From Amycolatopsis aidingensis (GTDB taxonomy: Bacteria > Actinomycetota > Actinomycetes > Mycobacteriales > Pseudonocardiaceae), in contig NZ_CP076538.1 of NCBI RefSeq assembly GCF_018885265.1, positions 5,926,001 to 5,990,000 of the forward strand: 64,000 nucleotides of DNA. The letters run 5' to 3'. Positions 24,154 through 53,506 of this stretch are shown here, in pieces. The notes under the pieces were generated by a model. The model did not search any database, had not been told where the DNA came from, and saw only the letters and a program-made list of their open reading frames with translations. Position 1 is the stretch's first letter. The number at the start of each line of letters is the position of its first letter. The position numbers were made by a program, and so were the translations under genes.

Positions 24154-25392
24154 GTGACGATACGAAAGACCTGGTGGATGGACAACACTTCGGCCGGCTA
24201 CGGCGTGTTCCTCGGCTTGGACGTGGGCAAAGGCGAGCACCACGCCATCGGCCTCGACCCCACCGGCAAACGGCTGCACGACGCGCCACTGCCCAACAAC
24301 GAGCCCAAGCTGCGGGAAGTCTTCGACCGTCTCGCCGAACACGGACGCCTGCTCGTAGTGGTCGACCAGCCCGCCACGATCGGCGCGCTGCCGGTCGCGG
24401 TCGCCCGTGCGTGCGGCCACCAGGTGGCCTACCTGCCCGGCCTGGCCATGCGCCGCATCGCCGACCTCTACCCCGGCAACGCCAAGACCGACGCCCGCGA
24501 CGCCTACGTCATCGCCGACGCTGCCCGCACCCTGCCGCACACCCTGCGCCAAGTCGACGTCGGAGACGACACCCTCGCCGAACTCGACGTGCTGGTCGGC
24601 TACGACGATGACCTCACCGCAGAGGCGACCCGGCTGTCCAACCGCATCCGCGGCCTGCTCACCGGCATCCACCCCGCCCTCGAACGCGTCCTCGGCCCCC
24701 GCATCACGCATGCGGCGGTGCTGGAGATCCTGTCGCGCTGCGGCGGCCCGGCCGGCATCCGCCAGGCTGGGCGCCGCAAGCTCACCGCCATGGCGGCCAA
24801 GCACGCGCCGCGTATGGGCACCAAGCTGGTCGAGAACATCCTCACCGCACTGCAGGAGCAGACCGTGACCGTTCCCGGCACCACCGCGGCCGACACCGTT
24901 CTGCCCCGCCTGGCCGACAGCCTGAAAACCGTGCTGGCGCAACGGAAACAGGTCGCGTCCGAGGTGGAGGAGATCCTCGATGCGCACCCTCTTGCCGGGG
25001 TCCTGACATCGATGCCCGGCATCGGGGTCAGGACCGCCGCCCGCATCCTCCTCGAGATCGGCGACGCCTCCGCCTTCGCCAGCTCCGGCCACCTCGCCGC
25101 CTACGCCGGGATCGCACCGGTCACCCACCGCTCCGGCAGCTCGATCAAGGGCGAACACCCCGCCCGCACCGGCAACCGCAAACTCAAACGCGCCTTCTTC
25201 CTCGCCGCCTTCGCCGCCCTGTCCGACCCCACCAGCAGGGCCTACTACCAACGAAAACGCGACGAAGGCAAGAAACACAACGCCGCCCTCATCTGCCTCG
25301 CACGCCGCCGCTGCGACGTGCTCTACGCCATGCTCCGCAACCACACCTACTACCGGCATCCCCAACCGGACTCCACGCCCGCTGCGGCTTGA
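24154..25392 (+). CDS. IS110 family transposase
   Basis: A 412-residue DEDD-type recombinase, or ~404 if it starts at ATG 24178. The N-terminal RuvC-like domain shows GLDVGKGEH, VVVDQPATIGAL (Asp where many members have Glu) and KTDARDAYVIADAART. The C-terminal Tnp20 domain has SMPGIGVRTAARILLEIGD and AYAGIAPVTHRSGSS with the candidate nucleophile Ser. The frame is intact, so the element may be active. It borders the desaturase relic on the left. Confidence 0.94.
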   Translation: MTIRKTWWMDNTSAGYGVFLGLDVGKGEHHAIGLDPTGKRLHDAPLPNNEPKLREVFDRLAEHGRLLVVVDQPATIGALPVAVARACGHQVAYLPGLAMRRIADLYPGNAKTDARDAYVIADAARTLPHTLRQVDVGDDTLAELDVLVGYDDDLTAEATRLSNRIRGLLTGIHPALERVLGPRITHAAVLEILSRCGGPAGIRQAGRRKLTAMAAKHAPRMGTKLVENILTALQEQTVTVPGTTAADTVLPRLADSLKTVLAQRKQVASEVEEILDAHPLAGVLTSMPGIGVRTAARILLEIGDASAFASSGHLAAYAGIAPVTHRSGSSIKGEHPARTGNRKLKRAFFLAAFAALSDPTSRAYYQRKRDEGKKHNAALICLARRRCDVLYAMLRNHTYYRHPQPDSTPAAA

Positions 25393-33009: not shown

Positions 33010-35946
33010 GTGGAGTTTCGGATGCTGGGCCCGCTGGAGGCATGGCATGACGGTGTCCAGGTGCCGTTGGGTGATCAGCAACAACGGTTCGTCCTCGTGG
33101 TACTTCTGCTGCACGCGAACAGGCCGGTTTCCACCTTCCGGCTGACCGAGATCGTCTGGGGCGGCAACCCGGCGCGGCGCGACCTGGTGCGTGGCTACAT
33201 CAACAAGCTGCGCAACGCGTTCCAGGACAACGACGACGTGCGCATCGAGACGACACCGACCGGCTATCTGTTGCGGATCGGCGCGGACCAGTTGGACACC
33301 AGCCGGTTCGACCGGCTGCGGGCCGAAGCGGAAGAGCTCCGGGGCACCGATCCGCGGCGGGCGATCGCGCTGTTGCGCACCGCGGTCGGCCTGTGGCGCG
33401 GCGGGTTCCTCGAGGACATCGACGTCGACCGGGTTGGTGGTCCGGAGGTGATTCCCCCGGACGAGAGCAGGCTGGACGCGATCGGTGATCTGGCCGAACT
33501 GGAACTGGAGACAGGCGATCACCGTTCGGCTCGCGACCGGCTGCGCCCGGTGGTGCGGGCGGACCCGGCCAGCCAGAAGCATGCCGAGCTGCTGATGCGC
33601 GCACTACTCGCGGGCGGGGACCGGGTCGCGGCGGTCCGCGTGTTCCACGGCACCCGGCAAGCCCTCGCCGAACTCGGCGTCGAGCCGGGTTTTGTGCTGC
33701 GTAACCTTTCCGCGCGGGCCGAGCGCGGTGAGCCTGCCGGTTCCCTTCCGTCCCGGCCCGCCGCGTTCACCGGCCGCGGCACGGAACTCGCCGTGATCGA
33801 GGCGGCCGCTTCGGCGGTCGGCGAGCGCCGCGCAGTGTGGGTGAGCGGCACCCCCGGCGTCGGGAAGACCGGCCTGGCGGTGGAGGCGGCGTACCGGCTC
33901 CGTGGCCGGTTCCCGGACGGGCAGGTGCTGGTGCGGCTGAACGGGTTCACCCCCGAGGTGCCCGCGTTGACCGTCGCGGAGGCCCTCACCCAGTTGCTGG
34001 TCGAGCTCGGCGTGCCGACCGAACGAATTCCGGCCACGGTGAGCCGGAAAATCGCGCTGTACCGCGCGGAGCTGTGCGGAACCAGAACGCTGGTGGTGCT
34101 GGACAACGCGGCCTCGCCGGAACAGATCCGGCCGCTGCTGCCGGAGGAGCCGGGCTGCTTCGCCATCGCGACCAGCAGGAAAGTGGGTGAGCTGGACACC
34201 GGGGAGCACATCCGGCTTTCGCCGCTGCCGCCGGAGGACGCCGTCGGGTTGTTCCACGCCCTGACCGATCCCACCCGCGCCGGTGGCCGGTCGGCCGAGG
34301 TGGTCCGGCGGTGTGGTTTCCTGCCGATGCCGATCAAGGTGGCGGCCGCGCTGTTGCGCAGGTACGACCAGTGGCCACTCGATCGTCTGCTCCGCCTGCT
34401 GGAGGAGAGCGGGCCGTGGTGCGCGGACACCGGTGAGCTGGAAGACGCCACGGCGGTGCGTGCGTCCTACCAACAGCTCGGCCACCCACAGCGGGCCATG
34501 TTCCGGTTGCTCGGCCACCTGCCGGGGCCGGACCTCGAGGTGACCGGCGCGGCGGCGTTCGCCCAGTGCGATGTCCCGAAGGCCCGCATCCTGCTCGGCG
34601 ACCTGCACGAGGTGAGCCTGGTGGAGGAGACCGGGCCGGAGCGGTACCAGCTACTGGACCCGCTCAAGGAGTTCGCCGCGGGGCAACCGCCGACGGTGCC
34701 GACCGAGCATGCTGACGCCACCCTCCGGCTGCTCGACTTCTATCTGGTCACGCTGGCCGCCGCGGTCGGCGCTGGCTACCCGTTCGACCGCGCCCAACTG
34801 CCCACTGTGCACCGTTCCTCCCCGGCGGCGCTGACCTTCGCCAGCCGGGACACGGCGCTGGGGTGGATAGCCGCCGAGCGGGACAACCTGGTGGCGGCGA
34901 TCCACTACGCTGCCACGCACGACCTTCCGGGGCACGCCTGGCGGCTGGCGGTGCTGATGTGCCGCCACTTCAACGCGACCAGCGAGTTCGAGGCCTGGAT
35001 CGAGACCATGGAGCTCGCCTGGAAGGTCGTCGCCCCCGGGCTGGACGAGGACTACGGTCAGGCGCACGTCCTGCTTCGCCTCGCCGTCGCGCACAACCGT
35101 GCCGGGCGGCCCACCAAGGCATTGGAACTGGCCGCGCAGGCACTGCCGAAATGGGTTCGACTGGGTGAGGTTCCTGGCGAGGCGGCCACCTTGTGCGCAA
35201 TTGCCGTTCCCACCATGGAACTCGGCAGGTATGACCAGGCGATCGCGCATTTCGCGGCCGCATTGGCCAAATACGAGCAGAGCGCGGACCAACGTGGGCA
35301 CGCCCACGCACTGAGCATGCTCGGCTGCCTCAACGAACTGCACGGCAACCTGGGCGTCGCACTGCGACAGCACCGGACCGCGGTGCGGATGCTGCACCAG
35401 ATCGGTCACCTGGCCGGGGTGGCGCACGCACTGAACAATCTCGGCTCGGTACAGCAACGGCTTGGGCTGCTGTCCGAGGCGCTGGCCAGCCATACCGAGG
35501 CACACGGGCACGCCGGCGCGGCCGGCGATCGCCGCGCGATGGTGCACGCGCTGAACAACATCGGGAACGTGCACCGCTTGCGTGGCAAGCTACCGGAGGC
35601 ACGGCGTTACCAGGAACGGGCCACGGTGGTGGCGGCCGAACTGTCCGACGCGGACCTGCACACCCGGCTCGATCTCGATCGCGGTGCGACCGCGCGCGCA
35701 GCCGGTGATCTGGCCGAGGCGCTGCGCGCCTACCAGGCCGCGCTGGAACGTGCGGCAAGTACGGACGGCCGCGCGCACCAGGCCCGAGCCCATCGCCATG
35801 TCGCGGAGGCCCTGCACACGCTGGGCAATCACGAGCGCGCCATTCCCCATTGGGACTCGGCCGAGGCGGAGTTCGCCCGGCTCGGGCTGCCGGATGCGGT
35901 CGAGATTCGCTCGGAACGCGCGGCGCTGGTATGCGCATGCCGGTAA
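33010..35946 (+). CDS. AfsR/SARP-type regulator with NB-ARC and TPR domains
   Basis: A 978-residue STAND protein. The winged-helix (LGPLEAWHDGVQVPLGDQQQRFVLVVLLLHANRPVST...GYINKLRNAF) is followed by a BTAD domain (~95-245), an NB-ARC ATPase with P-loop GTPGVGKTGL near residue 280 and LVVLDNA Walker B, and TPR repeats (~700-950, e.g. ALNNLGSVQQRLG, ALNNIGNVHRLRG). Such proteins activate secondary metabolism; NB-ARC/TPR proteins also act as sensors. GTG 33010 has GGGGAGG eight bases upstream. Its neighbour is a TIR-fold protein, not a biosynthetic cluster, which leaves its target open. Confidence 0.9.
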   Translation: MEFRMLGPLEAWHDGVQVPLGDQQQRFVLVVLLLHANRPVSTFRLTEIVWGGNPARRDLVRGYINKLRNAFQDNDDVRIETTPTGYLLRIGADQLDTSRFDRLRAEAEELRGTDPRRAIALLRTAVGLWRGGFLEDIDVDRVGGPEVIPPDESRLDAIGDLAELELETGDHRSARDRLRPVVRADPASQKHAELLMRALLAGGDRVAAVRVFHGTRQALAELGVEPGFVLRNLSARAERGEPAGSLPSRPAAFTGRGTELAVIEAAASAVGERRAVWVSGTPGVGKTGLAVEAAYRLRGRFPDGQVLVRLNGFTPEVPALTVAEALTQLLVELGVPTERIPATVSRKIALYRAELCGTRTLVVLDNAASPEQIRPLLPEEPGCFAIATSRKVGELDTGEHIRLSPLPPEDAVGLFHALTDPTRAGGRSAEVVRRCGFLPMPIKVAAALLRRYDQWPLDRLLRLLEESGPWCADTGELEDATAVRASYQQLGHPQRAMFRLLGHLPGPDLEVTGAAAFAQCDVPKARILLGDLHEVSLVEETGPERYQLLDPLKEFAAGQPPTVPTEHADATLRLLDFYLVTLAAAVGAGYPFDRAQLPTVHRSSPAALTFASRDTALGWIAAERDNLVAAIHYAATHDLPGHAWRLAVLMCRHFNATSEFEAWIETMELAWKVVAPGLDEDYGQAHVLLRLAVAHNRAGRPTKALELAAQALPKWVRLGEVPGEAATLCAIAVPTMELGRYDQAIAHFAAALAKYEQSADQRGHAHALSMLGCLNELHGNLGVALRQHRTAVRMLHQIGHLAGVAHALNNLGSVQQRLGLLSEALASHTEAHGHAGAAGDRRAMVHALNNIGNVHRLRGKLPEARRYQERATVVAAELSDADLHTRLDLDRGATARAAGDLAEALRAYQAALERAASTDGRAHQARAHRHVAEALHTLGNHERAIPHWDSAEAEFARLGLPDAVEIRSERAALVCACR

Positions 35947-36072
35947 TATTCCGGGCAGAAGCCGAGAATTCACCTCCACGCGTAATCCACGTCTGGTCCA
36001 CACGGCACCGTAATGCTGTGCCGGTACCCGGAAGTCCGGCCGCGTGCCGGTATGACCAAGGAGGTTCGGCTA

Positions 36073-36969
36073 GTGATCGAAACAGCCAGCTACGACTTCG
36101 CGGTGTCGTTCGCCGAAGATCAGGGGGAAGCCGTCGAGGAGGTGGTGGCGGCGTGCCGGCAGCGCGGGTTGACCGTGCTGTGCGAGCCCGAGCAGACCCA
36201 CGAGTGGTGGGCGCGTAAGAGCGAGGGCGACCTGCCGGAAGCCCAGGTCCGGTTCTTCGTTCCGATGGTGTCCGCGACGGACGATTTCGTCGCCGCCATG
36301 TTGCATGCGGTCAAGGCTGGCGAGCAGCACGTGCTGCCGGTGTTGCTGGACGATGTGGCGGTGCCTGCGGATCTGTTGCACCCGCACGTGAACTACCTGC
36401 GCGGCTCCGAGTCGCAACCGCACCAGCTCGCCGAGGCACTCGCAGGCCGGGTGGAGCAGGCCGAGGCCGCTGGGTGGGGCCTGGACCGGCTTGCCGCCGT
36501 GGTCACCAGGGCCAGGGCGATCGAGCCACCCGCGACCGTGCCGGTGGCGTTCAGCCGCTATGCGGAGCAGGAGGCGGCGATTCGCTACCTCGGCGAGCAA
36601 CTCGCCGCAGCCGTTCCGGCGCTGGGCAGGCACGGATTCGTCGGCACCGTGCACCGCGGGGACGCGCGGGTCGCGCTCCGGGTCGAGCGGGCCGGGGACA
36701 CGCTGTACGCGCTGGACATCCAGCGCGGCGGCATCGGCGGGGACGAGACGCTGAACTTCGTAGTCGGCAGGCACGATGCCGGAAGCGCCTGCACCAACGG
36801 CTGGGCGCGCCCGGTTTACGACACCGGCGCGGGAACGGCCAAACTGGAGCTGCACGACCGGTCGGTGTTCGGCCGGGAGGCAGCCGAAGCCTCCACCTAC
36901 ACTCGCGAAGAGCTGTTCACCGCGCTCTGGAAGCGAATCAACACGGTGCTCGCGGCGACCGCTGCCTGA
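36073..36969 (+). CDS. TIR-fold domain protein with C-terminal unknown domain
   Basis: A 298-residue protein from GTG 36073 (AAGGAGG eight bases upstream; a longer frame from 36013 is less likely). Residues ~6-110 resemble a TIR domain: YDFAVSFAEDQGEAVEEVVAACRQRGLTVLCEPEQTHEWW, then VRFFVPMVSATDDFVAAMLHAVKAGEQHVLPVLLDDV. The usual catalytic Glu of the S-x-W-C-x-x-E motif is not evident, so NADase activity is doubtful. The C-terminal ~150 residues (GFVGTVHRGDARVALRVERAGDTLYALDIQRGG...WKRINTVLAA) form a separate domain, unrecognised. It converges on the TIR/HerA operon across a strong terminator. Confidence 0.75.
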   Translation: MIETASYDFAVSFAEDQGEAVEEVVAACRQRGLTVLCEPEQTHEWWARKSEGDLPEAQVRFFVPMVSATDDFVAAMLHAVKAGEQHVLPVLLDDVAVPADLLHPHVNYLRGSESQPHQLAEALAGRVEQAEAAGWGLDRLAAVVTRARAIEPPATVPVAFSRYAEQEAAIRYLGEQLAAAVPALGRHGFVGTVHRGDARVALRVERAGDTLYALDIQRGGIGGDETLNFVVGRHDAGSACTNGWARPVYDTGAGTAKLELHDRSVFGREAAEASTYTREELFTALWKRINTVLAATAA

Positions 36970-36978
36970 CCCGAATCC

Positions 36979-37023
36979 ACAAGGGACGCGCTCCGCACCA
37001 ACGGCGCGGAGCGCGTCCCTTGT
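36979..37023. terminator. Strong bidirectional terminator
   Basis: Perfect 18-base arms at 36979-36996 and 37006-37023 (core GGGACGCGCTCCGC) around a 9-base loop, placed 9 bases after the TIR gene and just before the end of the converging 1024-residue ATPase gene. A and T flanks (ACAA/TTGT) make it work in both directions. Confidence 0.9.
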
Positions 37024-37026
37024 TCG

Positions 37027-40000
37027 TCAGCGGTCCACCCGGCCGTTGCGGGCCCGGTCGAGCACCTCCTCCAGGCGCAGCGGGCCGGGTGGGTGGTGGC
37101 TCAGGCACAGCGGAGCCCGCATGCGGCGGAACCCGAAGGTCTCCCCGGTGACGTAGAACTGCCCGCGTTCCAGCCGCGAGATGTCCCCCACCGTGCTGCC
37201 CTTGGCCCTGGCCATCTCGTTCGCCGCTGCGATCTGCGCCGGGCTGTTCAGACGGCCGAAGAACTGCGTGGTGGCGTTGCCGATCACCTGGTTGTGCAGG
37301 CCCTTCGGGGCCTGCGTCGCCAGCAGCAGGCCGAGCCCGTACTTGCGCGCCTGCGAGGCCAGCAGGATGGTGCTCTGCGTACTGGCCGTCCAGGCGCCGG
37401 ACGGCGCGATCGTCTGTGCCTCGTCCATCACGAACAGCCCGCCGAGAGGCCGGTCCACCGCCGGGTTGTGCTTGATCCAGGCGAACACCTCCAGCTGGAG
37501 CTGACTGATGAATCCCTGCCGCTGCTCATCGGACGGCAGCCCGACGAAGTTGATCACCGAGATCCGGGCCCGCTTGCCCTGCGCCGGGGTGAGCAGGACC
37601 CCCGGTTCGGCGGGCTCGCCCGCGCCGCCGAGCAGCGGGTCGTTGACCATCGCCGCCCGCAGGGTCTCGGCAAGGTCGGCGGCCATCCTGGTGGCGGTGC
37701 TGAGCTTGCTCACCCCCTCCGGCAGCTCGGCGAGCATCTCCACGAACCCGGACAGGCTGCGCGCCTCGGTACGCGCGTAGTGGGTCAGCGCCTCCCGCAA
37801 CACCGCCTGGCCCCGGATGGCGGCCTTCGTCCCGCCGCCGACCCTGGCGTGCGGCACCAGGCCTGCCACCGCCGCCTCGACCGCGGCGGCGAACTCGTCC
37901 TCGTCCTCGCGCACCCCGGCGAAGTCCGGTAGCGGGTGGAAGCTGAGCGGCCGACCGCTGGTACGGCCCGGGGTCCACACCACGACCTCGGTGTTGGCGA
38001 GGTAGTCGGCGGCGCTGGGGGCATCACCCTGCCGCCAGCCCGCAGGCGGTTGCGGCCAGGCCTCCCCCAGGCGCGCCAGGTCGTTGTTCGGATCCAGCAC
38101 GATCGCCGAGACGCCGCGCAGCGCGCACTCCTCCACGATGCGCCGCAGCAGCACGGTCTTGCCGGTGCCGGAGCCCGCGAAGATCACCGCGTGCTTGCGT
38201 AGCGACTCCAGCTCGATCCGGATCTCGCCCTCCATCCCGAGCACGATCTCCCCGGCCGGTGGTGGCCGTGTCTCCTGGTGACTGGTCTGGGACTGCCCCG
38301 GATCGGGCAGAATCTTGCGCAGCACGGTCGTCCGGCTCGCCGGTTTACGCGCCACCAGCCAGTTCAGCAACTCGTAGGTCTGCTTGGTCAGCATCTCCTT
38401 GAGCGCACAGAACGTCCGGACGTCGTCCCTGCTGATCTCGACCCGCGGGCTGCCCGCGTCCGCCAGCTCACTGACCTCGGACCTGGTCACATGGCCCGCC
38501 CAGCCCTTCGCTCCGCAGTGGAGCAACACCAGATACCGGTTGCGCACACCGGTCCGGATTCCGGCCGCCGCCTTGGCCTCCCGTACCTTGCGCAGCACCT
38601 TGAGCCCGTGCTGGGGCCCGATAGCGCGGAACATCCAGCGTTCCGCGATATCGCGTTCCTCGTCCAGGATCCGGCGCAGACCGGCATGCAACTGGCCACC
38701 ACCGTCTGGTGACGGCTCGGTCTCCCAAGACCTGTCGTCGTTGCCGACCTCGGTGATCCAGGACCGCAATGCCGCCTGCAACAGGTCCGGCATCACCGAA
38801 TCCTCGGTGTGCTGGTTCAACGCCGCCTCCACATCGGCGCACTCGCACAGCTTTTCGAACTGCCGATCGAAGTCGGCGAAGTACCCCGGCTCCGGCCCGG
38901 CCTGCTGCGGCACCTCGACTACTTCTTCGTCGAAAGAGACGAGCTCCCGGATCTCCCCATGCAGGCAGACCTCCGCGTGGGCTTGTACCCGTCGAAGCAG
39001 CTGCCGCGGGGTGTAGGTGTGCCACGTCCCACCGAACGCACTCGGTGCTACCGGCCAAGTGGGATGTGGTGGCGTGAAGTCGATTCGTTGATAGATCACA
39101 TCCAGCCACTTCCTGACCAGTTCACGCGCAAACTGCGGATCAGCGACAGCGGAAAGAATCGGTGCGTCGGTGAACCGGTCCGCTACGGTGTCGGTTGCCA
39201 CAGAGTTCAACAGCTTCCAGGTGTTCGGCAGGCACGCAACGATCGAAAGAGTCCGCCGCGTCGTCTCTCGCAACTGCATCAAGCCGTCGGCGATGAGCCC
39301 GAGCTCACTTACCGTCTCCGCGTCCGTCACCTGTTCATCAATGATGCTGCTCGTTCTGTCGACCAACGAATCCAACTGGTCGATGGCGACGACGCTCGGT
39401 CCCGTCAGCGCGAGCACGCGCGACATGTCCGTGACGAGGGCACGACGTGGTTTCGGCTGCGACTGCAGGTCCCAGGCTGCTCGCTCCCCATCGTTGTCCT
39501 CGGGCAGCCCCGCCAGATAATGCTTGCCGATGATGTGCTTGCTGTCCGTGGACGCATACAGCACCAGCGCGCGTATGGTGTCCCCGCACTCGACGGCGAC
39601 CTGGGCATCGACCTGACGGAGAGCACCGACAAATCTGTGCAGGTCAGCGAGGGCAAGTGGACCCTCGCCGAGGATGGACTTGACGACGGGAGCAGGAACT
39701 TCGGCCCGATCGCACAACCGTCGTAGCAGTTTGGTCAGCTGAAGTTCCCCGTCACCACTCTTGCGCAACAGTTCGCTGCGCATGGCCTCCGCGACGTCTT
39801 CCCAGAATGCGGCACCGGCCGTGAGATCGATCAGGAAGAAATAGCCACCCTCACCCTGCACCAGCTGCCTGACGCCACCGAGCAGATGGGTCTTTCCCAC
39901 ACCCTTCTGACCTTGCAGCGCAATGCCAATGGGGCTCGGGCCGTCACTGTCTTTCGCATCCCTGATCCTCGTCTGGATGCCGTGCTCCGCCCTGATATGC

Positions 40001-40101
40001 AATCCATCGACATGGGATGGCGACGTACGCCACACATCGTCTGGCGTGGCGGCGGAGTTGAAACGGAGCGCGGCAAGCGCCTGGCGAAGCTGTTCAGTCA
40101 T
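37027..40101 (-). CDS. AAA ATPase fused to HerA/FtsK-like ATPase
   Basis: A 1024-residue protein with two P-loops: GQKGVGKT at 64-71 within an N-terminal AAA module (VVAIDQLDSLVD as Walker B), and GSGTGKT near residue 643 opening a HerA/DUF87-type motor with VLDPNNDLARLG, GLFVMDEAQTIAPSGAW (Walker B), SQARKYGLGLLLATQAPKGL and GRLNSPAQIAAANEMARAKG. Between them are ~400 helical residues and a C-terminal charged tail. HerA motors pump DNA in repair and in several phage-defence systems. Last gene of a four-gene overlapping operon; ATG 40101 overlaps the upstream stop by four bases. Confidence 0.85.
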   Translation of the reverse strand: MTEQLRQALAALRFNSAATPDDVWRTSPSHVDGLHIRAEHGIQTRIRDAKDSDGPSPIGIALQGQKGVGKTHLLGGVRQLVQGEGGYFFLIDLTAGAAFWEDVAEAMRSELLRKSGDGELQLTKLLRRLCDRAEVPAPVVKSILGEGPLALADLHRFVGALRQVDAQVAVECGDTIRALVLYASTDSKHIIGKHYLAGLPEDNDGERAAWDLQSQPKPRRALVTDMSRVLALTGPSVVAIDQLDSLVDRTSSIIDEQVTDAETVSELGLIADGLMQLRETTRRTLSIVACLPNTWKLLNSVATDTVADRFTDAPILSAVADPQFARELVRKWLDVIYQRIDFTPPHPTWPVAPSAFGGTWHTYTPRQLLRRVQAHAEVCLHGEIRELVSFDEEVVEVPQQAGPEPGYFADFDRQFEKLCECADVEAALNQHTEDSVMPDLLQAALRSWITEVGNDDRSWETEPSPDGGGQLHAGLRRILDEERDIAERWMFRAIGPQHGLKVLRKVREAKAAAGIRTGVRNRYLVLLHCGAKGWAGHVTRSEVSELADAGSPRVEISRDDVRTFCALKEMLTKQTYELLNWLVARKPASRTTVLRKILPDPGQSQTSHQETRPPPAGEIVLGMEGEIRIELESLRKHAVIFAGSGTGKTVLLRRIVEECALRGVSAIVLDPNNDLARLGEAWPQPPAGWRQGDAPSAADYLANTEVVVWTPGRTSGRPLSFHPLPDFAGVREDEDEFAAAVEAAVAGLVPHARVGGGTKAAIRGQAVLREALTHYARTEARSLSGFVEMLAELPEGVSKLSTATRMAADLAETLRAAMVNDPLLGGAGEPAEPGVLLTPAQGKRARISVINFVGLPSDEQRQGFISQLQLEVFAWIKHNPAVDRPLGGLFVMDEAQTIAPSGAWTASTQSTILLASQARKYGLGLLLATQAPKGLHNQVIGNATTQFFGRLNSPAQIAAANEMARAKGSTVGDISRLERGQFYVTGETFGFRRMRAPLCLSHHPPGPLRLEEVLDRARNGRVDR

Positions 40102-40724
40102 GAGTCCTCGATCGCCAAGAGGTGCTTTTGTTCACTACCGATACGGACCGCTGCGGCGTGGTCGGCTTCGGTCAGCGTCTTGCGGTTGGAATCCGGAGCG
40201 AGGTGGACGAGTCCGGTCCTGGTCATCGCCAGCAGCACCTGGTCAACCTCGTCCTTGGCGGTGCCGTCGAGCCTGGGGCGGAGCTTGGCCAGCCGTACCC
40301 AGTCCTGCGGCTTCGTGGACAGTTCGCGATACGCCGCGCGGATCAGGGTCTCCAGGTCGGCTGGATGGACCACATCGGCAAGGCGGACGTTTTGCTGCTG
40401 GAGATACTTGATAACAGGAGCAATCAGCTCACAGAGAACCCCCAGCAAGGCAACGGACGACCGAGCTGATCGCTCGCCGGAGGCAAGCACCTCCTCGCAC
40501 TTCGATTTCCCGTCCGCGGTGATCTCGTGCACATGTGGAGCCTTCTCCGTTCGGCTCTTGATGAAACCCGCCTTGTTCAGCTTGTCCCGAGTCTCCTTGC
40601 GGAGATCCACCCGATGACGCTTCTTGAGCTCAGGGGTCGTTATCTCCGTGCCGACCAGCAGCAGCGCGAACAACGCGGCCTTTTCCGCATTTCCCAGCGT
40701 TTCCGCCATTCCGTTACCTTTCAC
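40098..40724 (-). CDS. Winged-helix protein with PQDW...KHLLAI domain
   Basis: A 208-residue protein (203 if it starts at ATG 40709, preceded by AAAGG). Residues ~8-80 look like a winged helix (NAEKAALFALLLVGTEITTPELKKRHRVDLRKETRDKLNKAGFIKS). The C-terminal ~73 residues (KPQDWVRLAKLR...LLAMTRTGLVHLAPDSNRKTLTEADHAAAVRIGSEQKHLLAIE) match the element protein at 3668-4132 at 55 of 73 positions. Coupled by GTGA/ATGA overlaps to its neighbours, it may be the DNA-binding or sensing part of the system. Confidence 0.8.
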   Translation of the reverse strand: MKGNGMAETLGNAEKAALFALLLVGTEITTPELKKRHRVDLRKETRDKLNKAGFIKSRTEKAPHVHEITADGKSKCEEVLASGERSARSSVALLGVLCELIAPVIKYLQQQNVRLADVVHPADLETLIRAAYRELSTKPQDWVRLAKLRPRLDGTAKDEVDQVLLAMTRTGLVHLAPDSNRKTLTEADHAAAVRIGSEQKHLLAIEDS

Positions 40725-42343
40725 TTGTGGGACACATTGATTCGGCGGTCGAGCCGTTCGATCAGCTCGCCGATCCGGGTACCGAGGCCATCCGGCGCTG
40801 TGAACCGGTCACTGTTCGCGCGGACCTCGTTCAGCTGTTCCAGGTCCACCGTGAGGTCCTGGAACAGGGCCAGGTCGTCGGCGTCCAGCGCCGCGGTCAT
40901 CTCCCGCACGGTCTGCTCGATGAGGGTCCAACGCCCGCGATGCGCCACCTCCTCCGGCACATTGCGTAGTGCGGCGGCCGCCTCCCGTAGCGCCGTCCGG
41001 GCGGAGTCGGCCCGGCTCGGCGAGGTTCTGTTCAGGAGCTCGTACAGTTGCTGCGCCACCTGCCGGGGCCGCACGACCGTGTCGAACTCGAGGTGCCGCA
41101 GGTTACGCAGGAACCAGGGCAGCCGCTCGCGGTCGGTGTTGCGGGTCAGCACACAGAACAAACGGCGGTCGCCGTCGGCGTCCAGTGCGTGCCGCAGGAA
41201 CCGCTCAGCTTCGGTGGCCTGCCAGCGGCTCACCTCCTTGTCCACGATGAGACACAGGTGCCTGGCAGGGTCCGGGTTCCGGTCGAGGAAGTCGGGATGA
41301 CCGGACAGTGACCGGTGCGCCCGCACGCCGAGCGCGCCCAGTTCGTCGATGAACTGGGTCGCCATGTCCAGTACCGACCGCGGGGTCGACACCAGCAGGT
41401 CCAGCTCGTACTCCCGCTCCTGGGTGCGGGCCGAGGCCACATAGGCATCCCGGTTGTCCGCGAGCAGGTCGGTACGGTCGAACTGCTGCGCGATCACCGC
41501 GGCCACGGTCTCCAGTGCGAAGGAGATCTGGTCCGCCGAGGGGCTACGTTCCTCCAGCACCGGCAACTGCTCGCCGAAACTCCAGTAGGAGACGTACGGC
41601 AAGGTGAGATGGCGAAGCATTACGTCCGTCGGCACGCCTCTCGACACCCAGTTGTGGAACAGCGGCGCAACGGTCTCGGCACATCTGCGCTGCCAGGACT
41701 CGGCCCGCTCGTACTCCACCCGGTTGTCCAGGCGGGCCAGGATCGGCAGCACCATATGTACCGCCCGGTCGTAGGGCAGCCGGTCCCTGGCACGATCGGC
41801 GAGCCGGGCCGCATCCACGACTCCTTCGACGCTCTGCTGGTTGGCGGTGAACACGACGACCAGCCGATCGGGCAGCTGTGCGGTACAGATTCCACCGATG
41901 TCGGAAAGGCCGGTCCGGCTGTCGATCAGCACGAAGTCGTAGCTTGCCGCCCACTCCCTCCGGCAACGTTCGAGGAAGCTGGCGAACCCGCGCTGGTAAA
42001 GGTCGTCCCAGTCGATGTCTTGTACCCGCCGGGTGTAGCCCTCGTCCTGCCTGCCCGCGGCCAGTAGCGCCACGATGCCGTCCTCGATGTCGAGCCGGAC
42101 GGCGTGATCGGCCGGCCGTTTCGCACCGGCGAGGAAGTCGTAGGCGAGATCGACCACCCCGCCATCCGGCGCCTTGGGCAGCATCGGCGCGAAGTAGTGG
42201 TGCAGCCCGGGCGCCTCCAGGTCCCAGTCGATGGTGAGCACCCGGTAACCCCACCTGGCCAGCAGCACTGCGACATTGGCCAGCGCGAAGCTACGCCCGA
42301 CCCCGCCCTTGTAGGAGTAGAAGGTGACGATGGTCCCGGTCAT
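40721..42343 (-). CDS. KGGVGR-motif MinD/ParA-like ATPase with TIR-like domain
   Basis: A 540-residue protein. The deviant Walker A is YSYKGGVGRS (residues 9-18), followed by the switch/Walker B group YDFVLIDSRTGLSDIGGICT, the KGGVGR-variant family of SIMIBI ATPases. From about residue 307 a second domain reads YELDLLVSTPRSVLDMATQFIDELGALGVRAHRS...HLCLIVDKEVSRWQATEAERFLRHALDAD, a TIR-like fold, and ~100 helical residues close the protein. It starts at ATG 42343 overlapping the TIR gene stop (ATGA). The ATPase may control assembly or activity of the TIR subunits. Confidence 0.85.
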   Translation of the reverse strand: MTGTIVTFYSYKGGVGRSFALANVAVLLARWGYRVLTIDWDLEAPGLHHYFAPMLPKAPDGGVVDLAYDFLAGAKRPADHAVRLDIEDGIVALLAAGRQDEGYTRRVQDIDWDDLYQRGFASFLERCRREWAASYDFVLIDSRTGLSDIGGICTAQLPDRLVVVFTANQQSVEGVVDAARLADRARDRLPYDRAVHMVLPILARLDNRVEYERAESWQRRCAETVAPLFHNWVSRGVPTDVMLRHLTLPYVSYWSFGEQLPVLEERSPSADQISFALETVAAVIAQQFDRTDLLADNRDAYVASARTQEREYELDLLVSTPRSVLDMATQFIDELGALGVRAHRSLSGHPDFLDRNPDPARHLCLIVDKEVSRWQATEAERFLRHALDADGDRRLFCVLTRNTDRERLPWFLRNLRHLEFDTVVRPRQVAQQLYELLNRTSPSRADSARTALREAAAALRNVPEEVAHRGRWTLIEQTVREMTAALDADDLALFQDLTVDLEQLNEVRANSDRFTAPDGLGTRIGELIERLDRRINVSHK

Positions 42344-42936
42344 GGGCCGAACCTCGGAATCGACGGCGGAGGCATCAACAGGGGTTGAGGTGACCGAATG
42401 ACCGGCCAGTCGGGCTGCCAGTCGGGCACCTGTTTCAACAGTTCGGAGAGATCCTCGGCGAACCTGACGACCTTCTCGTGAAAATTGGACCAGCCTGGGC
42501 TTACCTGAAAGACCGCCTCGGGCATGGCTACGTCTTTGAAGTCCCACCAGGCCCGCATCGTGCCCTTTTCTGGAAAGTTGTTCGAGTCGGAGTACAGAAT
42601 GGGGTAGATCAGACCTTGCGGGCAGTCAGAACCGGCAAGCCCGAGCACCCTCTCCCGCTCACACATACTGTCCCATTCCGCCATGCACCACGCCGACTCG
42701 AAGTAAGGCGGGCTGAGCACCGGGATCAGGATCTTGCTACGAAGCAATACCCTGGCCAGCTTCTCCGGCCAGGACACGCCACGGTGCATCGTCCGGTCGA
42801 GGAACACTCTTGGCGCGGGCGCGATCTGGTCGGCAAGGCAGTCCTGGAACTTCGGGAAGAAGTTATTCACCAACCATTTCGGTGCGCTGCCGACGTTGCT
42901 GTAACTGATGAACACGTCGTACTCGTAGCCGGGCAC
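42340..42936 (-). CDS. TIR domain protein (predicted NADase)
   Basis: A 198-residue protein made almost wholly of a TIR domain: YDVFISYSNVGSAPK, RVFLDRTMHRGVSWPEKLARVLLRSKILIPVLSPPYFESAWCMAEWDSM. The SAWCMAE motif carries the catalytic Glu (E87) typical of NAD-cleaving TIR domains. No membrane segment or extra sensor exists, so it is likely the effector of the operon it leads. GTG 42936 (MPGYEYDVF) is the natural start. Confidence 0.88.
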   Translation of the reverse strand: MPGYEYDVFISYSNVGSAPKWLVNNFFPKFQDCLADQIAPAPRVFLDRTMHRGVSWPEKLARVLLRSKILIPVLSPPYFESAWCMAEWDSMCERERVLGLAGSDCPQGLIYPILYSDSNNFPEKGTMRAWWDFKDVAMPEAVFQVSPGWSNFHEKVVRFAEDLSELLKQVPDWQPDWPVIRSPQPLLMPPPSIPRFGP

Positions 42937-47531: not shown

Positions 47532-49031
47532 ATGGGGAAGGGCGACAGCGAATCGAGCAGGGAAGTTGGGGTAATGCCAGAAGAGGCCTCACCGGTGAAC
47601 ATCGGTGATCTGCTGCTGGTGCCGTTCACGGCAGGGCAGCGGGTACTGGGAATGCAGACGAAACTGCACCGTTGGGCGGCGGCCGATCCCGGTCGCCGGT
47701 TTGATGATCTCTACAACCTCGTGGCCGACCCCGCGTTCCTCGCCGTGGCGTGGGAGCGGGTGTCAGGGAACACCGGAGCACGCAGCGCGGGCGTCGATCG
47801 CCGAACGGTGCGGTCGATCACCGACTCGGCGCTGGGTGTGGTCGGGTTGTTGGAGGAAATCCGCGCCGATCTGAAAGCGCGGACGTTCCGTCCGCTCCCG
47901 GTCCGGGAACGACACATCCCCAAAGCCGGTGGGAAGACCCGTCGGCTGGGGATACCGACCGTGACCGATCGGGTCGTTCAAGCCTCGCTGAAGCTGGTCC
48001 TGGAACCGATCTTCGAGGCCGGGTTCCAGTCCTCCAGCTATGGTTTCCGGCCCAGGCGCCGGGCCCAGGACGCCATCGAAGAAATCCGCAAACATGCCCG
48101 TGAGGGCTACGAATGGGTCTTCGAGGGCGACATCACCGCCTGCTTCGACGAGATCGACCACACCGCCCTGCTGGGTTTGGTGCGGCGACGCGTCAAGGAC
48201 AAGCGGATTCTGGAACTCATCAAGGCGTTCCTGCGCGCCGGAATCCTCAGCGAGGATGGTCCTGACCGGGACACCCATACCGGAACCCCGCAGGGCGGCA
48301 TCCTGTCGCCTCTGCTGGCCAACATCGCCCTCTCCGAGCTGGACGACTATTTCCACCAGTTGTGGGAGAACCACAAGAACGCCACCAACCGGCAACGGCA
48401 CCGTGAACGCGGCGGTGCGACGTTCCGCCTGACCCGATACGCCGACGACTTCGTCGTCATGGTCAACGGAACCCGGGAACACACGGAATCCTTGTGGGGC
48501 GAGATCGAGGCGATCCTGGCCGGGATCGGGCTACGGCTCGCACCCGAGAAAACCGGAATCGCCCACATCGACGAGGGGTTCGACTTCCTCGGGTTCCGCA
48601 TCCAGCGGTATCGCCAATATGGAAGCGATCGGCGACTGATCTACACCCTCCCCTCGAAGAAGTCGATGACTTCGATCAAGCGGAAGATCAAGACAGTTAC
48701 CAAACGGATCACCCATCAGGACGCGGACCAACTGTTCCGGCAACTCGGAACGATGACCCGCGGATGGGCCCAGTACTTCCGGCACGGCTCTTCCAGCAAG
48801 GCCTACCACCACCTGCAAGACTACCTGTGGTGGCGGGTCTGGGAATGGCTGAAGAACAAACACCCCCGTACCAGTAAACGGGACATCATAAACCGTTACT
48901 ACAACCGGTGGTGGCCGGAATATAACGGTGTCGAACTATGGAGACCCACAACGATGACCATCCAACGTTATCGCTACCGAGGAAACCAAATCTCGACACC
49001 CTGGGACAAACCAGCCATAACGGCAACCTAA
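47532..49031 (+). CDS. Group II intron reverse transcriptase/maturase
   Basis: A 499-residue LtrA-type protein. It shows the RT blocks RHIPKAGGKTRRLGIPTVTDRVVQ, SSYGFRPRRRAQDAI, EGDITACFDEIDH, GTPQGGILSPLLANIAL, RLTRYADDFVVMV (catalytic YADD) and FDFLGFR. The maturase domain X follows (RGWAQYFRHGSSSKAYHHLQDYLWWRVWEWLKNKH). No HNH endonuclease follows; the protein ends ~40 residues after domain X, so target-site second-strand cleavage must rely on other means. Start ATG 47532 or 47574. Confidence 0.95.
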   Translation: MGKGDSESSREVGVMPEEASPVNIGDLLLVPFTAGQRVLGMQTKLHRWAAADPGRRFDDLYNLVADPAFLAVAWERVSGNTGARSAGVDRRTVRSITDSALGVVGLLEEIRADLKARTFRPLPVRERHIPKAGGKTRRLGIPTVTDRVVQASLKLVLEPIFEAGFQSSSYGFRPRRRAQDAIEEIRKHAREGYEWVFEGDITACFDEIDHTALLGLVRRRVKDKRILELIKAFLRAGILSEDGPDRDTHTGTPQGGILSPLLANIALSELDDYFHQLWENHKNATNRQRHRERGGATFRLTRYADDFVVMVNGTREHTESLWGEIEAILAGIGLRLAPEKTGIAHIDEGFDFLGFRIQRYRQYGSDRRLIYTLPSKKSMTSIKRKIKTVTKRITHQDADQLFRQLGTMTRGWAQYFRHGSSSKAYHHLQDYLWWRVWEWLKNKHPRTSKRDIINRYYNRWWPEYNGVELWRPTTMTIQRYRYRGNQISTPWDKPAITAT

Positions 49032-49997: not shown

Positions 49998-50309
49998 TTG
50001 GATTTCAAGGCGGAACCCGGAACCATCCGGAAGTTCGGTGAACGGATGGACGAACTGGTCGCCGACGCGAACGCGGCGACGACGTACGCCGAGGATCACC
50101 TGCAGATCACCGGCGCCGACACCCGGATATTCGCGACGGTCGCAGGCGCCGCCTCGGACGCCAAGGCCGCGCTCAGCGAGAACTACCAGCGGTTGGCCAA
50201 GATCCAGCAGACCGCGGCCACCGAGCTGGACAAGGCAGCGGCCATGTACCAGGAGACCGACGATGCCAAGGCCGAGCGCCTTGACAGCACCTACCCGACG
50301 GGCGAATGA
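49998..50309 (+). CDS. ESX/WXG100-like type VII secretion protein
   Basis: A 103-residue helical protein with TTG start 49998 preceded by GGAGG. DFKAEPGTIRKFGERMDELVADANAATTYAEDHL and AKAALSENYQRLAKIQQTAATELDKAAAMYQETDD are two long helices typical of the ESX-associated (DUF2580-like) secreted proteins of actinomycetes. It overlaps the next gene by four bases. Confidence 0.75.
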   Translation: MDFKAEPGTIRKFGERMDELVADANAATTYAEDHLQITGADTRIFATVAGAASDAKAALSENYQRLAKIQQTAATELDKAAAMYQETDDAKAERLDSTYPTGE

Positions 50310-51031
50310 CTGTGAGTGAATCACCTGCCACGATGTTGGCCGACCCTACCGCATCCGATCCCGTTCCGGACCTCCTGGAGAGCGTGATCGGGATCAGCCA
50401 GTATCTCAGTGTTTCCTACTGGGTCGGCGAAGCCATCGAGCTCGTCTTCGATGTGCATCCCTTCGAATGGGTCGCCGAGCAGTACGCCGGCGACTGGGAG
50501 CTGGTCCAGAAGGCCGGTATCGCGCTGGAGAATCTCGGCAAGTTCAACGCGGCCTATTCCGACGCCATCACGAACGAGTTGAAGACCGTCGCGAACGGCT
50601 GGCAGGGCAACGCCGCCGACAGCGCGAGCGCCTACTTCGACGGCCTGGCCCAGACGATCCAGGACCAGCAGGACACCCTGAACGCGATGGGCAGCGAGTT
50701 CAAGCAGAGCGCGGTCGGGATGTACGAAACGGCCAACGCGATCAAGGGCCTGCTGGACACCCTGATGGATCTGGTCATCGCGATCGGGCTCGAACTGGCC
50801 GCCGCCGCGGCGAGCAGCTGGACCATTATCGGACCCATCCTGTCCGGTGCCGCCGCGGCCGCCACGATCAGCAAGGCTCTTGGCGTCTGGGATGAGGTGC
50901 TGACGTATCACACCGCGGCATGGAACGCCGCGCAGGGACTGGTCGGGCTCATGGCGGGATACCTGAGCACGCTCGGCGACATCGAGAAGCACGCCCTTCC
51001 GGGAAGCAACTACGACCACCCGGGGGTATGA
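50306..51031 (+). CDS. WXG100-type type VII secretion target
   Basis: A 241-residue protein. A WXG turn NGWQGNAADSA sits in the middle of a helical hairpin (AYSDAITNELKTVANGWQGNAADSASAYFDGLAQTI), followed by a hydrophobic region (LLDTLMDLVIAIGLELAAAAASSWTIIGPILSGAAAAATISKAL). It is likely exported, with a membrane-active or channel-like C-terminal region. Its partner is probably the small helical protein upstream. No ESX core genes lie in the window. Confidence 0.78.
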   Translation: MTVSESPATMLADPTASDPVPDLLESVIGISQYLSVSYWVGEAIELVFDVHPFEWVAEQYAGDWELVQKAGIALENLGKFNAAYSDAITNELKTVANGWQGNAADSASAYFDGLAQTIQDQQDTLNAMGSEFKQSAVGMYETANAIKGLLDTLMDLVIAIGLELAAAAASSWTIIGPILSGAAAAATISKALGVWDEVLTYHTAAWNAAQGLVGLMAGYLSTLGDIEKHALPGSNYDHPGV

Positions 51032-52050: not shown

Positions 52051-52422
52051 TCACGCCGGCGCCGGATCGTCCAGCTGGGCCACCAGCTTCTTCGGGGCGA
52101 CCATCCGGTAGGCGTCGGTGACGATCTCGGTGATCTCGGCCCAGTCGACGTCCACGTCGAGCCGGACGCCCAGCCAGCCCCGGTGCCCCACGTATGGCGG
52201 CCGGTAGAACCGCTCCGGTTCCTGCGCCACCAGCTCCTCCTGCACTCCGGGCGGGGCCGGGCACCAGAAGCCCAGCCGATCGTCGTGATGATGGTCGGCG
52301 TACATCACGAAGGTCTTCTTGCCGCGGATGAACCAGGTCGGCTCGCCGTGGCTCAGCCGCTCGGTGACCTCCGGCAAAGCCAGGCAGATGCGTCGTAATG
52401 ACTCAAGTCGATCGTGAGACAT
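52051..52422 (-). CDS. MmcQ/YjbR family protein
   Basis: A 123-residue protein: RRICLALPEVTERLSHGEPTWFIRGKKTFVMYADHHHDDRLGFWCPAPPG, then YRPPYVGHRGWLGVRLD and DWAEITEIVTDAYRMVAPKKL. This is the CyaY-like YjbR fold, thought to bind DNA, function unclear. Nothing in the neighbourhood points to a pathway. Confidence 0.88.
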   Translation of the reverse strand: MSHDRLESLRRICLALPEVTERLSHGEPTWFIRGKKTFVMYADHHHDDRLGFWCPAPPGVQEELVAQEPERFYRPPYVGHRGWLGVRLDVDVDWAEITEIVTDAYRMVAPKKLVAQLDDPAPA

Positions 52423-52504
52423 GCGGTTATCGTGCCCGGAGCGTGAGCCGTCATGCGAGCCCTCGCATGATCCCCTAGCCTCGGATCAGGAGGAAGGGGG
52501 CGCC

Positions 52505-53506
52505 GTGACCACCGATATCGTGCTCGCCGCACCCCTGGAGACCATCGGGACCTGGCAGCTGTGGGCCATCTCTATCGCGGCCCTGCTGACCCTGCTCACC
52601 CTGGACTTCGCGCTGACCCACCGGCCGCATGAGGTGTCCATGCGCGAGGCGGTCGGGTGGTCGGTCTTCTACTTGCTGCTGCCGGTGGTGTTCGGGTTCT
52701 ACCTTTTCGCCGACTACGGCGGCACCGTCGCGACCGAGTTCTTCACCGGCTTCGTGGTGGAGAAGTCGCTCTCGGTGGACAACCTGTTCGTCTTCATCCT
52801 GCTGCTGCCCGCGTTCGGGGTGCCGAAGACGCTGGAGCAGCGGGTCCTGTTGTTCGGCATCGTGGGCGCGCTCGTACTACGCGGCATCTTCATCGCGCTC
52901 GGCGCGGCCGCCCTGCAGTCCGGGACCTGGGCCTTCCTGCTCTTCGGCGGGATTCTGCTGCTCACCGCGGTCAAGACGTTCAAGGACGCGCTGGCGGGCC
53001 AGAACGCGGGCGACCGCACCGAGTCCAGCGAGGCCGACGTCTCCGACATGCGCTCCATCCGGTTCATCCGCAGGGCGCTTCCGGTGACCCCGGAGTACCG
53101 CGGCACCAGCCTGTTCGGCCGGCACGATGGCAAACTCGCCCTCACCCCGCTCGCGGCGGTCATCGTGGCGGTGTTCGCAACCGACGTGGTGTTCGCCGTG
53201 GACTCGGTACCCGCCGTCTACGGCATCACCAACGACCCCTACCTGGTGTTCAGCACCAACGCCTTCGCGCTACTCGGCCTGCGCGCGCTCTACTTCGTGC
53301 TGCAGGGCGTGCTGAGCAAGCTGGCGTACCTGCACCACGGGCTGGCGATCATCCTGGGCTTCATCGGGATCAAGCTGGTACTGCACTGGGCGCACGAGAC
53401 CTGGGAGCAGGTGCCGTCCGTGCCTACCTGGCTCTCCCTGGTGGTCATCGTGCTGGTACTGGCCGTGGTCACCCTCGCCAGCCTGCGCGCCAGGGCCCGC
53501 CACTGA
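52505..53506 (+). CDS. TerC family membrane protein (second copy)
   Basis: A 333-residue protein from GTG 52505 (AGGAGGAAGGGGG upstream), with VDNLFVFILLLPAFGVP and FATDVVFAVDSVPAVYGIT. Nine helices and the short C-terminal end without the 70-residue tail of the copy at 17513. Predicted manganese/metal exporter or metal stress protein. Both TerC genes share the LGLRALYF/LGLRQLYF block. Confidence 0.9.
   Translation: MTTDIVLAAPLETIGTWQLWAISIAALLTLLTLDFALTHRPHEVSMREAVGWSVFYLLLPVVFGFYLFADYGGTVATEFFTGFVVEKSLSVDNLFVFILLLPAFGVPKTLEQRVLLFGIVGALVLRGIFIALGAAALQSGTWAFLLFGGILLLTAVKTFKDALAGQNAGDRTESSEADVSDMRSIRFIRRALPVTPEYRGTSLFGRHDGKLALTPLAAVIVAVFATDVVFAVDSVPAVYGITNDPYLVFSTNAFALLGLRALYFVLQGVLSKLAYLHHGLAIILGFIGIKLVLHWAHETWEQVPSVPTWLSLVVIVLVLAVVTLASLRARARH

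Follow-up and report, generated by a model that had tools for sequence, protein, structure and literature searches.

A TIR-carrying winged-helix–HerA operon in Amycolatopsis aidingensis as a candidate member of a proposed modular actinobacterial immune system

The DNA analysed here, referred to below as the window, is a stretch of 64,000 nucleotides from Amycolatopsis aidingensis (contig NZ_CP076538.1, positions 5,926,001 to 5,990,000). It contains an operon of four minus-strand open reading frames (ORFs) at 37027-42936, which encode a TIR protein (g1), a KGGVGR ATPase (g2), a winged-helix protein (g3) and a protein with AAA+ and HerA modules (g4). The genes and their recognisable parts are as follows.

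42340-42936, minus strand: g1, TIR-domain protein of 198 residues with a GTG start (Pfam, NCBIfam and structure-profile matches)
40721-42343, minus strand: g2, KGGVGR-variant MinD-like ATPase of 540 residues (NF047398, translation)
42290-42310, minus strand: KGGVGRS P-loop variant, g2 residues 12-18 (invariant in 37 of 37 loci)
41012-41422, minus strand: possible TIR-like central domain, g2 residues 308-444, with W374-x3-E378 (hhalign; suggestive only)
40745-40984, minus strand: CATASP (CATRA-associated small protein) domain, g2 C-terminus (PF20271)
40098-40724, minus strand: g3, tandem winged-helix protein of 208 residues, or 203 from an internal ATG (AlphaFold2 model)
37027-40101, minus strand: g4, AAA+/middle/HerA protein of 1024 residues (Pfam, model)
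38392-38805, minus strand: g4 middle domain (model secondary structure, conservation over 67 rows)

The four ORFs and the overlaps that join them, both described in the first-pass annotation, were found in the sequence. Direct reading gives ATGA between g1 and g2, with the ATG of g2 at 42343-42341, GTGA between g2 and g3, and ATGA between g3 and g4, the last two holding if g3 and g4 start at their ORF starts. These two starts are uncertain because database entries from the same contig begin both genes later, giving proteins of 203 residues (g3) and 957 residues (g4); relatives of g4 align with it from its first residues on. The longest ORF of g2 has 608 residues and reaches back into g1 from a start at 42547. 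The ATG at 42343, giving 540 residues, fits the relatives, which are 527-570 residues long among the 120 matches listed. Domain matches beyond chance are TIR_2 for g1 (E 1.6e-10), AAA_KGGVGR for g2 (160.5 bits, cut-off 90) and DUF87 for g4 (E 3e-8).

The g1 protein is nearly a bare TIR domain (Pfam TIR_2, 42 bits; TIR, 32 bits) with the NADase-type motif SAWCMAE, just as had been noted at first reading, and its Glu87 is encoded at 42676-42678. In plant TIRs the glutamate of the corresponding S-x-W-C-x-x-E motif is catalytic. Glu87 is invariant in all 37 loci with TIR and KGGVGR genes, and in matches of the g1 profile to TIR structures its aligned counterpart is the WCLDE glutamate of 7xoz, a PDB entry named ADP-ribosyl cyclase/hydrolase. 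Judged by its motif, g1 is probably an NADase-type TIR, predicted to destroy or convert nicotinamide adenine dinucleotide (NAD).

The N-terminus of g2 matches NF047398, the model of KGGVGR-variant AAA ATPases, at the 160.5 bits given above and over its curated cut-off, in agreement with the MinD-like assignment of the first-pass annotation, and the KGGVGRS loop is as invariant as the TIR glutamate. Homologs number 3091 at E <= 0.001 among 8000 scored candidates, and many of them carry the name "CATRA system-associated protein". The CATASP domain at the C-terminus (PF20271, 34.9 bits, cut-off 29) had been overlooked, and the fused TIR-like domain claimed for this protein is suggestive only: the centre of g2 aligns end to end with the g1 TIR family at an hhalign E of 0.086 and a probability of 0.7%, with W374 kept in 37 of 37 loci and E378 in 35 of 37, at the W-x3-E spacing of TIR domains. 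We considered E378 as a second TIR glutamate and rejected it, as it was invariant in 23 rows yet is kept in only 35 of 37 in the wider set.

In its AlphaFold2 model (mean predicted local distance difference test score 92.6), g3 consists of two winged helices, the first MarR/TubR-like, and no family matches it above cut-off (MksE reaches only E 0.042). The winged helix had been recognised at first reading; the "element-derived" domain also assigned to g3 was not found, the second winged helix standing in the model instead. For g4, the two ATPase modules reported earlier, the second of them HerA-like, were both recovered: an AAA+ module at about residues 1-380 and a HerA/FtsK ATPase at 614-1015, separated by a middle alpha/beta domain at about 433-570. 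Both P-loops retain their GKT, and HerA its DEAQ motif, in 67 of 67 rows. AAA_22 matches g4 at 31.8 bits, and among the 60 of 155 matches listed for a profile of the N-terminal part, most are short segments of general AAA+ proteins (best E 7.5e-4). The middle domain, with the order helix, three strands, helix, strand, resembles the restriction-endonuclease (REase) fold in the model and lacks a conserved D...(E/Q)xK set over the 67 rows, consistent with a possible inactive REase-like domain. The model further shows a helical insert within HerA at about 734-820 and, where a HAS barrel was compared, only short strands before the HerA Walker A motif (618-621 and 627-630). HerA dominated the list of a PDB fold search with g4, so the AAA+ and middle domains were barely probed by it; against viral models, HerA- and packaging-type ATPases were among the best matches.

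Relatives of g4 were found in 57 of 298 genomes from the order and in 6 of 396 from the phylum (own genome included in each), in 3 of 72,556 plasmid records, one of which is an 11.9-Mb record, and in none of 50,697 phage records or 147 viral-contig candidates. A contig scan with the single g4 sequence as query gave no match; from a scan with an alignment (A1) the best 80 of 208 confirmed loci were used, so the locus sample leans to near relatives. Together with 40 places taken from matches in the 57 order genomes, the 3 plasmid records and the window, these make up 124 loci found through g4. Because members of the same loci supplied most of the sequences behind the hidden Markov models for TIR, KGGVGR, winged helix and DUF559, the locus counts below describe detection and are no independent test.

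The winged-helix and HerA genes stay together as a core in all loci compared, the former lying directly upstream of the latter in 124 of 124. TIR and KGGVGR genes stand before this pair in 37 loci; the gene order that the first-pass annotation proposed to look for in other actinomycetes is thus kept. The spacing in these 37 loci, measured between a stop codon and the closest in-frame start of the gene that follows, a choice that favours overlaps, is -4 to +5 bp between TIR and KGGVGR, -4 to +75 bp between KGGVGR and winged helix (36 of 37 measured), and either -4 bp (27 loci) or -1 bp (10 loci) between winged helix and HerA. Among the 298 genomes, KGGVGR matches of at least 500 bits adjoin a HerA match in 19 of 19 cases, the window included. 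Pairwise distances of the four proteins correlate over 35 loci (Spearman 0.76-0.88), as expected if they were inherited together; shared host ancestry would give the same.

The module beside the core varies among relatives and includes several unrelated effector types: of the 124 loci, 37 have TIR and KGGVGR, another 37 have a DUF559-type nuclease, and 50 have other genes or none. The active-site residues are conserved, and D292, E303 and D305 of the DUF559 proteins are kept in 37 of 37. TIR/KGGVGR and DUF559 occur together in 0 of 124 loci. This mutual exclusion, with a constant winged-helix–HerA pair and differing partners, points to a modular immune core with an exchangeable slot. A script first put the remaining 50 loci into a class "other", which we then subdivided manually on the basis of blastp clusters, with one or two members representing each family. 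These loci comprise the PADLOC candidate PDC-M02B (7, a count that rests on one scanned member, L088, at 346.8 bits), an AIPR-type gene downstream (7), an NTPase-TPR type (5, resting on two members, neither with a family above cut-off), a divergent WD40-repeat gene (3) and no recognised partner (28). The divergent gene of L067, L068 and L070 has WD40 Pfam matches in one member, and trypsin- and ATPase-like parts were seen by eye. AIPR is a nuclease; the AIPR-type gene encodes 572-594 residues and starts no more than 25 bp after HerA in the seven loci, and AIPR (PF10592) scored 139-156 bits (cut-off 25) at the expected positions in six of the seven genomes, L069 not being searched. A pPIWI_RE gene lies upstream of the pair only in L118 and L129. 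Because both loci carry the AIPR-type gene too, pPIWI_RE may be a joined second system rather than a slot effector, and we read the HsdR of L144 likewise.

We placed the modules on a tree of 119 distinct HerA proteins (FastTree, local support only), the sequences of L083, L084, L096, L100 and L112 repeating others. The TIR- and KGGVGR-carrying loci make up one clade (35 of 36 rows, local support 100), the exception, L044, lacking both genes. All named members of this clade belong to Pseudonocardiaceae apart from one record under the name Nocardia. DUF559 requires 9 changes on the tree, PDC-M02B 3 and AIPR 3, and all labels together 16, compared with 66.4 when shuffled.

Some individual loci show further arrangements. 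In L044 the SEFIR gene described below is retained beside the winged-helix–HerA pair, TIR and KGGVGR being missing. L071 (7293-12261), from the Tsukamurella tyrosinosolvens plasmid record NZ_LR134464.1, is a DUF559–winged-helix–HerA cassette with 4-bp overlaps that splits a plasmid-borne ribosomal-protein gene cluster, with VapB/PIN-type and DEAD-box helicase genes alongside. At L144 (2449-15035) an apparent type I restriction operon is followed by a 72-residue ORF and by winged-helix, HerA and AIPR-type genes, with short overlaps or gaps; the HsdR (type I R subunit) that precedes the pair was recognised by Pfam, the two genes before it not being scanned. A protein of 620-730 residues fills the slot upstream of the winged helix in L123, L133, L128 and L050. 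In L050 and L123 this protein gave no Pfam match above cut-off and no PADLOC match; by eye, the L050 member has a P-loop-like motif. In several species of the Mycobacteriaceae clade (for instance L057, L059, L061 and L147) the pair lies behind a gene that is reductase-like by eye, with no effector recognised.

Two accessory genes flank the TIR- and KGGVGR-carrying loci, and one of them is present in the window, next to a possible terminator.

36013-36969, plus strand: accessory gene c7, 318 residues, no recognised family, convergent with g4 (kept in 17 of 37 loci)
36979-37023, no strand assigned: inverted repeat of 21 nucleotides with a 3-nucleotide loop, lying where g4 and the next gene converge; a possible terminator

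Terminator-like sites number 4 in the region, close to the 3.1 expected by chance. Of the 37 loci, 17 have c7 downstream in convergent orientation and 18 a SEFIR-NPCBM gene upstream in divergent orientation (PADLOC bSEFIR, 97.6 bits in L040). The two never share a locus, and which of them is present tracks two sub-clades of the TIR and KGGVGR clade. c7 has no Pfam, NCBIfam or PADLOC match; its N-terminus may be weakly SEFIR-like (hhalign E 0.0054, probability 6.7%), and comparison of c7 with the TIR family gave a probability of 1%.

Neither PADLOC nor NCBIfam has a model set that fits the four genes, so the operon does not coincide with a named system in these collections, and no description of the four-gene layout was found in a literature search that left most subscription journals, bioRxiv and supplements outside. 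This agrees with the first-pass annotation, which had called the layout undescribed. The same search found no literature on KGGVGR and nothing relevant on CATASP. The closest described kind, which that annotation did not name, is that of the HerA/FtsK capture systems, described as Orc/CDC6 AAA+ ATPase, iREase, REase and winged helix-turn-helix proteins (PMC10853773). As there, an AAA+ ATPase with HerA/FtsK (g4) and a winged-helix partner (g3) are present here, with nuclease genes in many relatives, and the helical insert of HerA and the putative inactive REase-like middle domain in the g4 model may be further likenesses. The operon differs in that a single protein combines AAA+ and HerA and that, in this clade, TIR and KGGVGR occupy the place of the expected REase. 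Pfam finds no active REase in g1-g4, DUF559 being confined to relatives; because this defining enzyme is absent, we do not class the operon as a member. Section 22 of PMC10853773 names no TIR and KGGVGR gene set, its TIR mention concerning Orc/CDC6 fusions in other neighbourhoods, and "KGGVG" is absent from the main text. In its working the operon would resemble both those systems and their relative BREX-Related Capture (BRC), which the main text of PMC12839542 describes with an Orc/Cdc6-type AAA+ protein, HerA/FtsK and a DNA-binding module; that text also lists PglZ, DUF6079, DUF4007 and a STAND NTPase, and the terms "TIR", "MinD" and "DUF559" are absent from it.

Other systems share single features with the operon. 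HerA motors in immunity pair with, among others, NAD-cleaving SIR2 or DNA-cleaving DUF4297, and SIR2-HerA (Nezha) is an anti-phage system. Those systems have two genes (PMC11291478, in its account of DUF4297-HerA), whereas here there are four, with TIR as the effector and with HerA preceded by an N-terminal AAA+ module and a middle domain; Pfam finds no SIR2 or DUF4297 effector in g1-g4, and NF042943 scores 25.2 bits against a threshold of 800. Thoeris (ThsA/ThsB) also has a small TIR protein, but the scanned window genes include no ThsA-type domain, SIR2 is absent from g1-g4 and 20 other scanned window proteins, and the sole match to a Thoeris model is Thoeris_type3_ThcB4 at 15.9 bits against 220. 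Among PADLOC candidates, the likeness is at the level of domains: PDC-M28B (KGGVGR) matches g2 at 91.9 bits, PDC-S66 (TIR) g1 at 23.7 bits and mad8 g4 at 69 bits, and PDC-M02B reaches up to 346.8 bits in the slot of a relative. The matches to g1, g2 and g4 are partial or weak, g3 has none, and no system spans the four genes. vWA-MoxR conflict systems, as covered in PMC7159879, likewise list MinD/ParA-like and FtsK-type ATPase domains and TIR as effector domains; there the ATPases are predicted to be inactive and are tied to vWA-MoxR, and no MoxR or vWA gene is found among the scanned window genes.

Taken with the conserved pair and its changing neighbours, we consider it moderately likely that actinobacteria possess a modular HerA immune system and that the operon is its TIR-armed form. 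An immune function directed at viruses or plasmids is probable: the pair kept in 124 of 124 loci beside DUF559 and, elsewhere, AIPR-type, pPIWI_RE and PDC-M02B genes gives circumstantial support to the first-pass proposal of a candidate immune system. Several observations weigh against it. A partner was not recognised in 28 of 124 loci (27 of 119 distinct), 20 of the 27 partnerless HerA rows falling within one clade rich in Mycobacteriaceae. TIR and KGGVGR appear to have joined the core once on the tree and been kept since, except in L044, so their tie to it rests on one acquisition. The KGGVGR domain as such is not bound to HerA: across the 298 genomes, 21 matches of lower score (136-301 bits) belong to larger frames found apart from HerA. 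The P-loop position that is usually lysine is arginine in KGGVGRS, which puts the ATPase activity of g2 in question, and the putative TIR-like centre of g2 lacks statistical support. Clustering in defence islands, a further check suggested at first reading, was not borne out either. We compared 105 genes around 18 loci (17 with TIR and KGGVGR, and L044) with 105 genes from 17 other, hand-picked regions of the same contigs, with no more than 6 genes from a flanking stretch and 7 from a control stretch; genes below 100 or above 700 residues, incomplete genes, the core, c5 and c7 were left out, and the gene calling was crude. Counted as families rather than matched genes, the flanks gave 6 PADLOC families at 1e-15 with one member each (at most 6 of the 105 genes), and the control 33 with up to 3 members, many of them overlapping kinase-type models; the flanks are thus no richer than the control. 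When ten further window neighbours were compared with PADLOC, only an intron-type reverse transcriptase matched.

On the favoured reading of a TIR-armed HerA immune system, the winged-helix–HerA pair would act as a motor engaged on DNA together with its DNA-binding partner, the module exchanged beside it would be the weapon, and g2 a coupling or licensing ATPase. g4 may form a ring on DNA, a HerA hexamer with an AAA+ tier, and g3 may assist it in recognising or loading onto invading or replicating DNA. Translocation driven by ATP, or its stalling, would then be relayed through g2, its CATASP and possible TIR-like domains serving as an adaptor, and the TIR protein would oligomerise and cleave NAD, such that the infected cell is killed or arrested, or a nucleotide signal is made. 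In relatives the same core would hand DNA to the DUF559 or AIPR-type nuclease. We give an even chance to a wider proposal, in which a large unnamed actinobacterial family shares one DNA-sensing core on which no fewer than four or five killing modules, unrelated to each other, have been exchanged. The module of Pseudonocardiaceae would be a two-protein NAD switch, in which the KGGVGR ATPase, possibly with a second TIR-like domain, licenses the bare TIR on foreign DNA.

The role of the TIR protein might also be to make a signal, an ADP-ribose (ADPR)-type cyclic nucleotide such as ThsB of Thoeris makes, rather than to deplete NAD, with a separate executioner, perhaps the SEFIR-NPCBM protein or c7. 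The TIR is small and nearly bare, as this would lead one to expect, and an accessory gene accompanies 35 of the 37 loci (SEFIR 18, c7 17, never both), its type following the two sub-clades. We regard this as a serious alternative, though rather unlikely, given that c7 has no recognised effector domain, that L078 and L079 carry neither accessory gene in the fetched stretch, and that no nucleotide-binding effector was recognised among the scanned window genes.

Two further proposals concern the system as a whole. The operon may belong to an FxSxx-COOH- or CATRA-type system, regulatory or linked to a peptide, that serves conflict or development in multicellular bacteria and is not mainly directed against phages. 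In its favour are the likeness of g1 to FxsC (FxsC_Nterm, 57.1 bits), the CATASP domain of g2 and the CATRA-derived names of many of its homologs, and the window gene at 33010-35946, with its likeness to AfsR, HaaT and the FxSxx TPR protein. All of these FxsC, AfsR, HaaT and FxSxx-TPR scores are under their cut-offs (130 for FxsC), no caspase-like peptidase or radical SAM enzyme is found among the 24 Pfam-scanned window proteins (g1-g4 and 20 others), the TPR protein is an AfsR-like regulator, and relatives of the core carry nuclease genes instead, which makes the proposal improbable. Slightly less credible still is a module for DNA segregation or mobility, in which a MinD/ParA-like ATPase, a TubR/MarR-like winged helix and an FtsK/HerA pump would act in partition or transfer and the TIR would be regulatory. 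The same core adjoins AIPR-type, DUF559, pPIWI_RE and type I R-subunit genes elsewhere, which makes partition less likely; KGGVGR is found in just 37 of the 124 core loci, and g4 relatives in just 3 of 72,556 plasmid records, 0 of 50,697 phage records and 0 of 147 viral-contig candidates.

If the favoured immune reading holds, one core with several unrelated partners would make HerA sensing and effector switching testable by exchanging effectors. A possible function would then emerge for KGGVGR ATPases and CATASP domains, which are widespread and unexplained, and one more type of defence would be recorded in a group of bacteria known for its many antibiotics.

Further genes lie around the operon in the window. 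The next gene but one (33010-35946) encodes the AfsR/SARP-like BTAD-NB-ARC-TPR protein mentioned above, which in PADLOC matches a TPR model only and whose resemblances to HaaT and the FxSxx TPR protein also stay below cut-off; relatives of this gene are found near several HerA loci. About 4.6 kb past the start of the TIR gene, 47532-49031 encodes a group II intron-type reverse transcriptase with a maturase domain, and an IS110-family transposase gene lies at 24154-25392. The window holds two genes for TerC-family membrane proteins, at 17513-18694 and 52421-53506. At 49998-51031, an EspC-like gene (43.5 bits, cut-off 23.5) and a WXG100-like gene (28.2 bits, cut-off 27.3) overlap by 4 bp, a pair of the type VII secretion substrate type.

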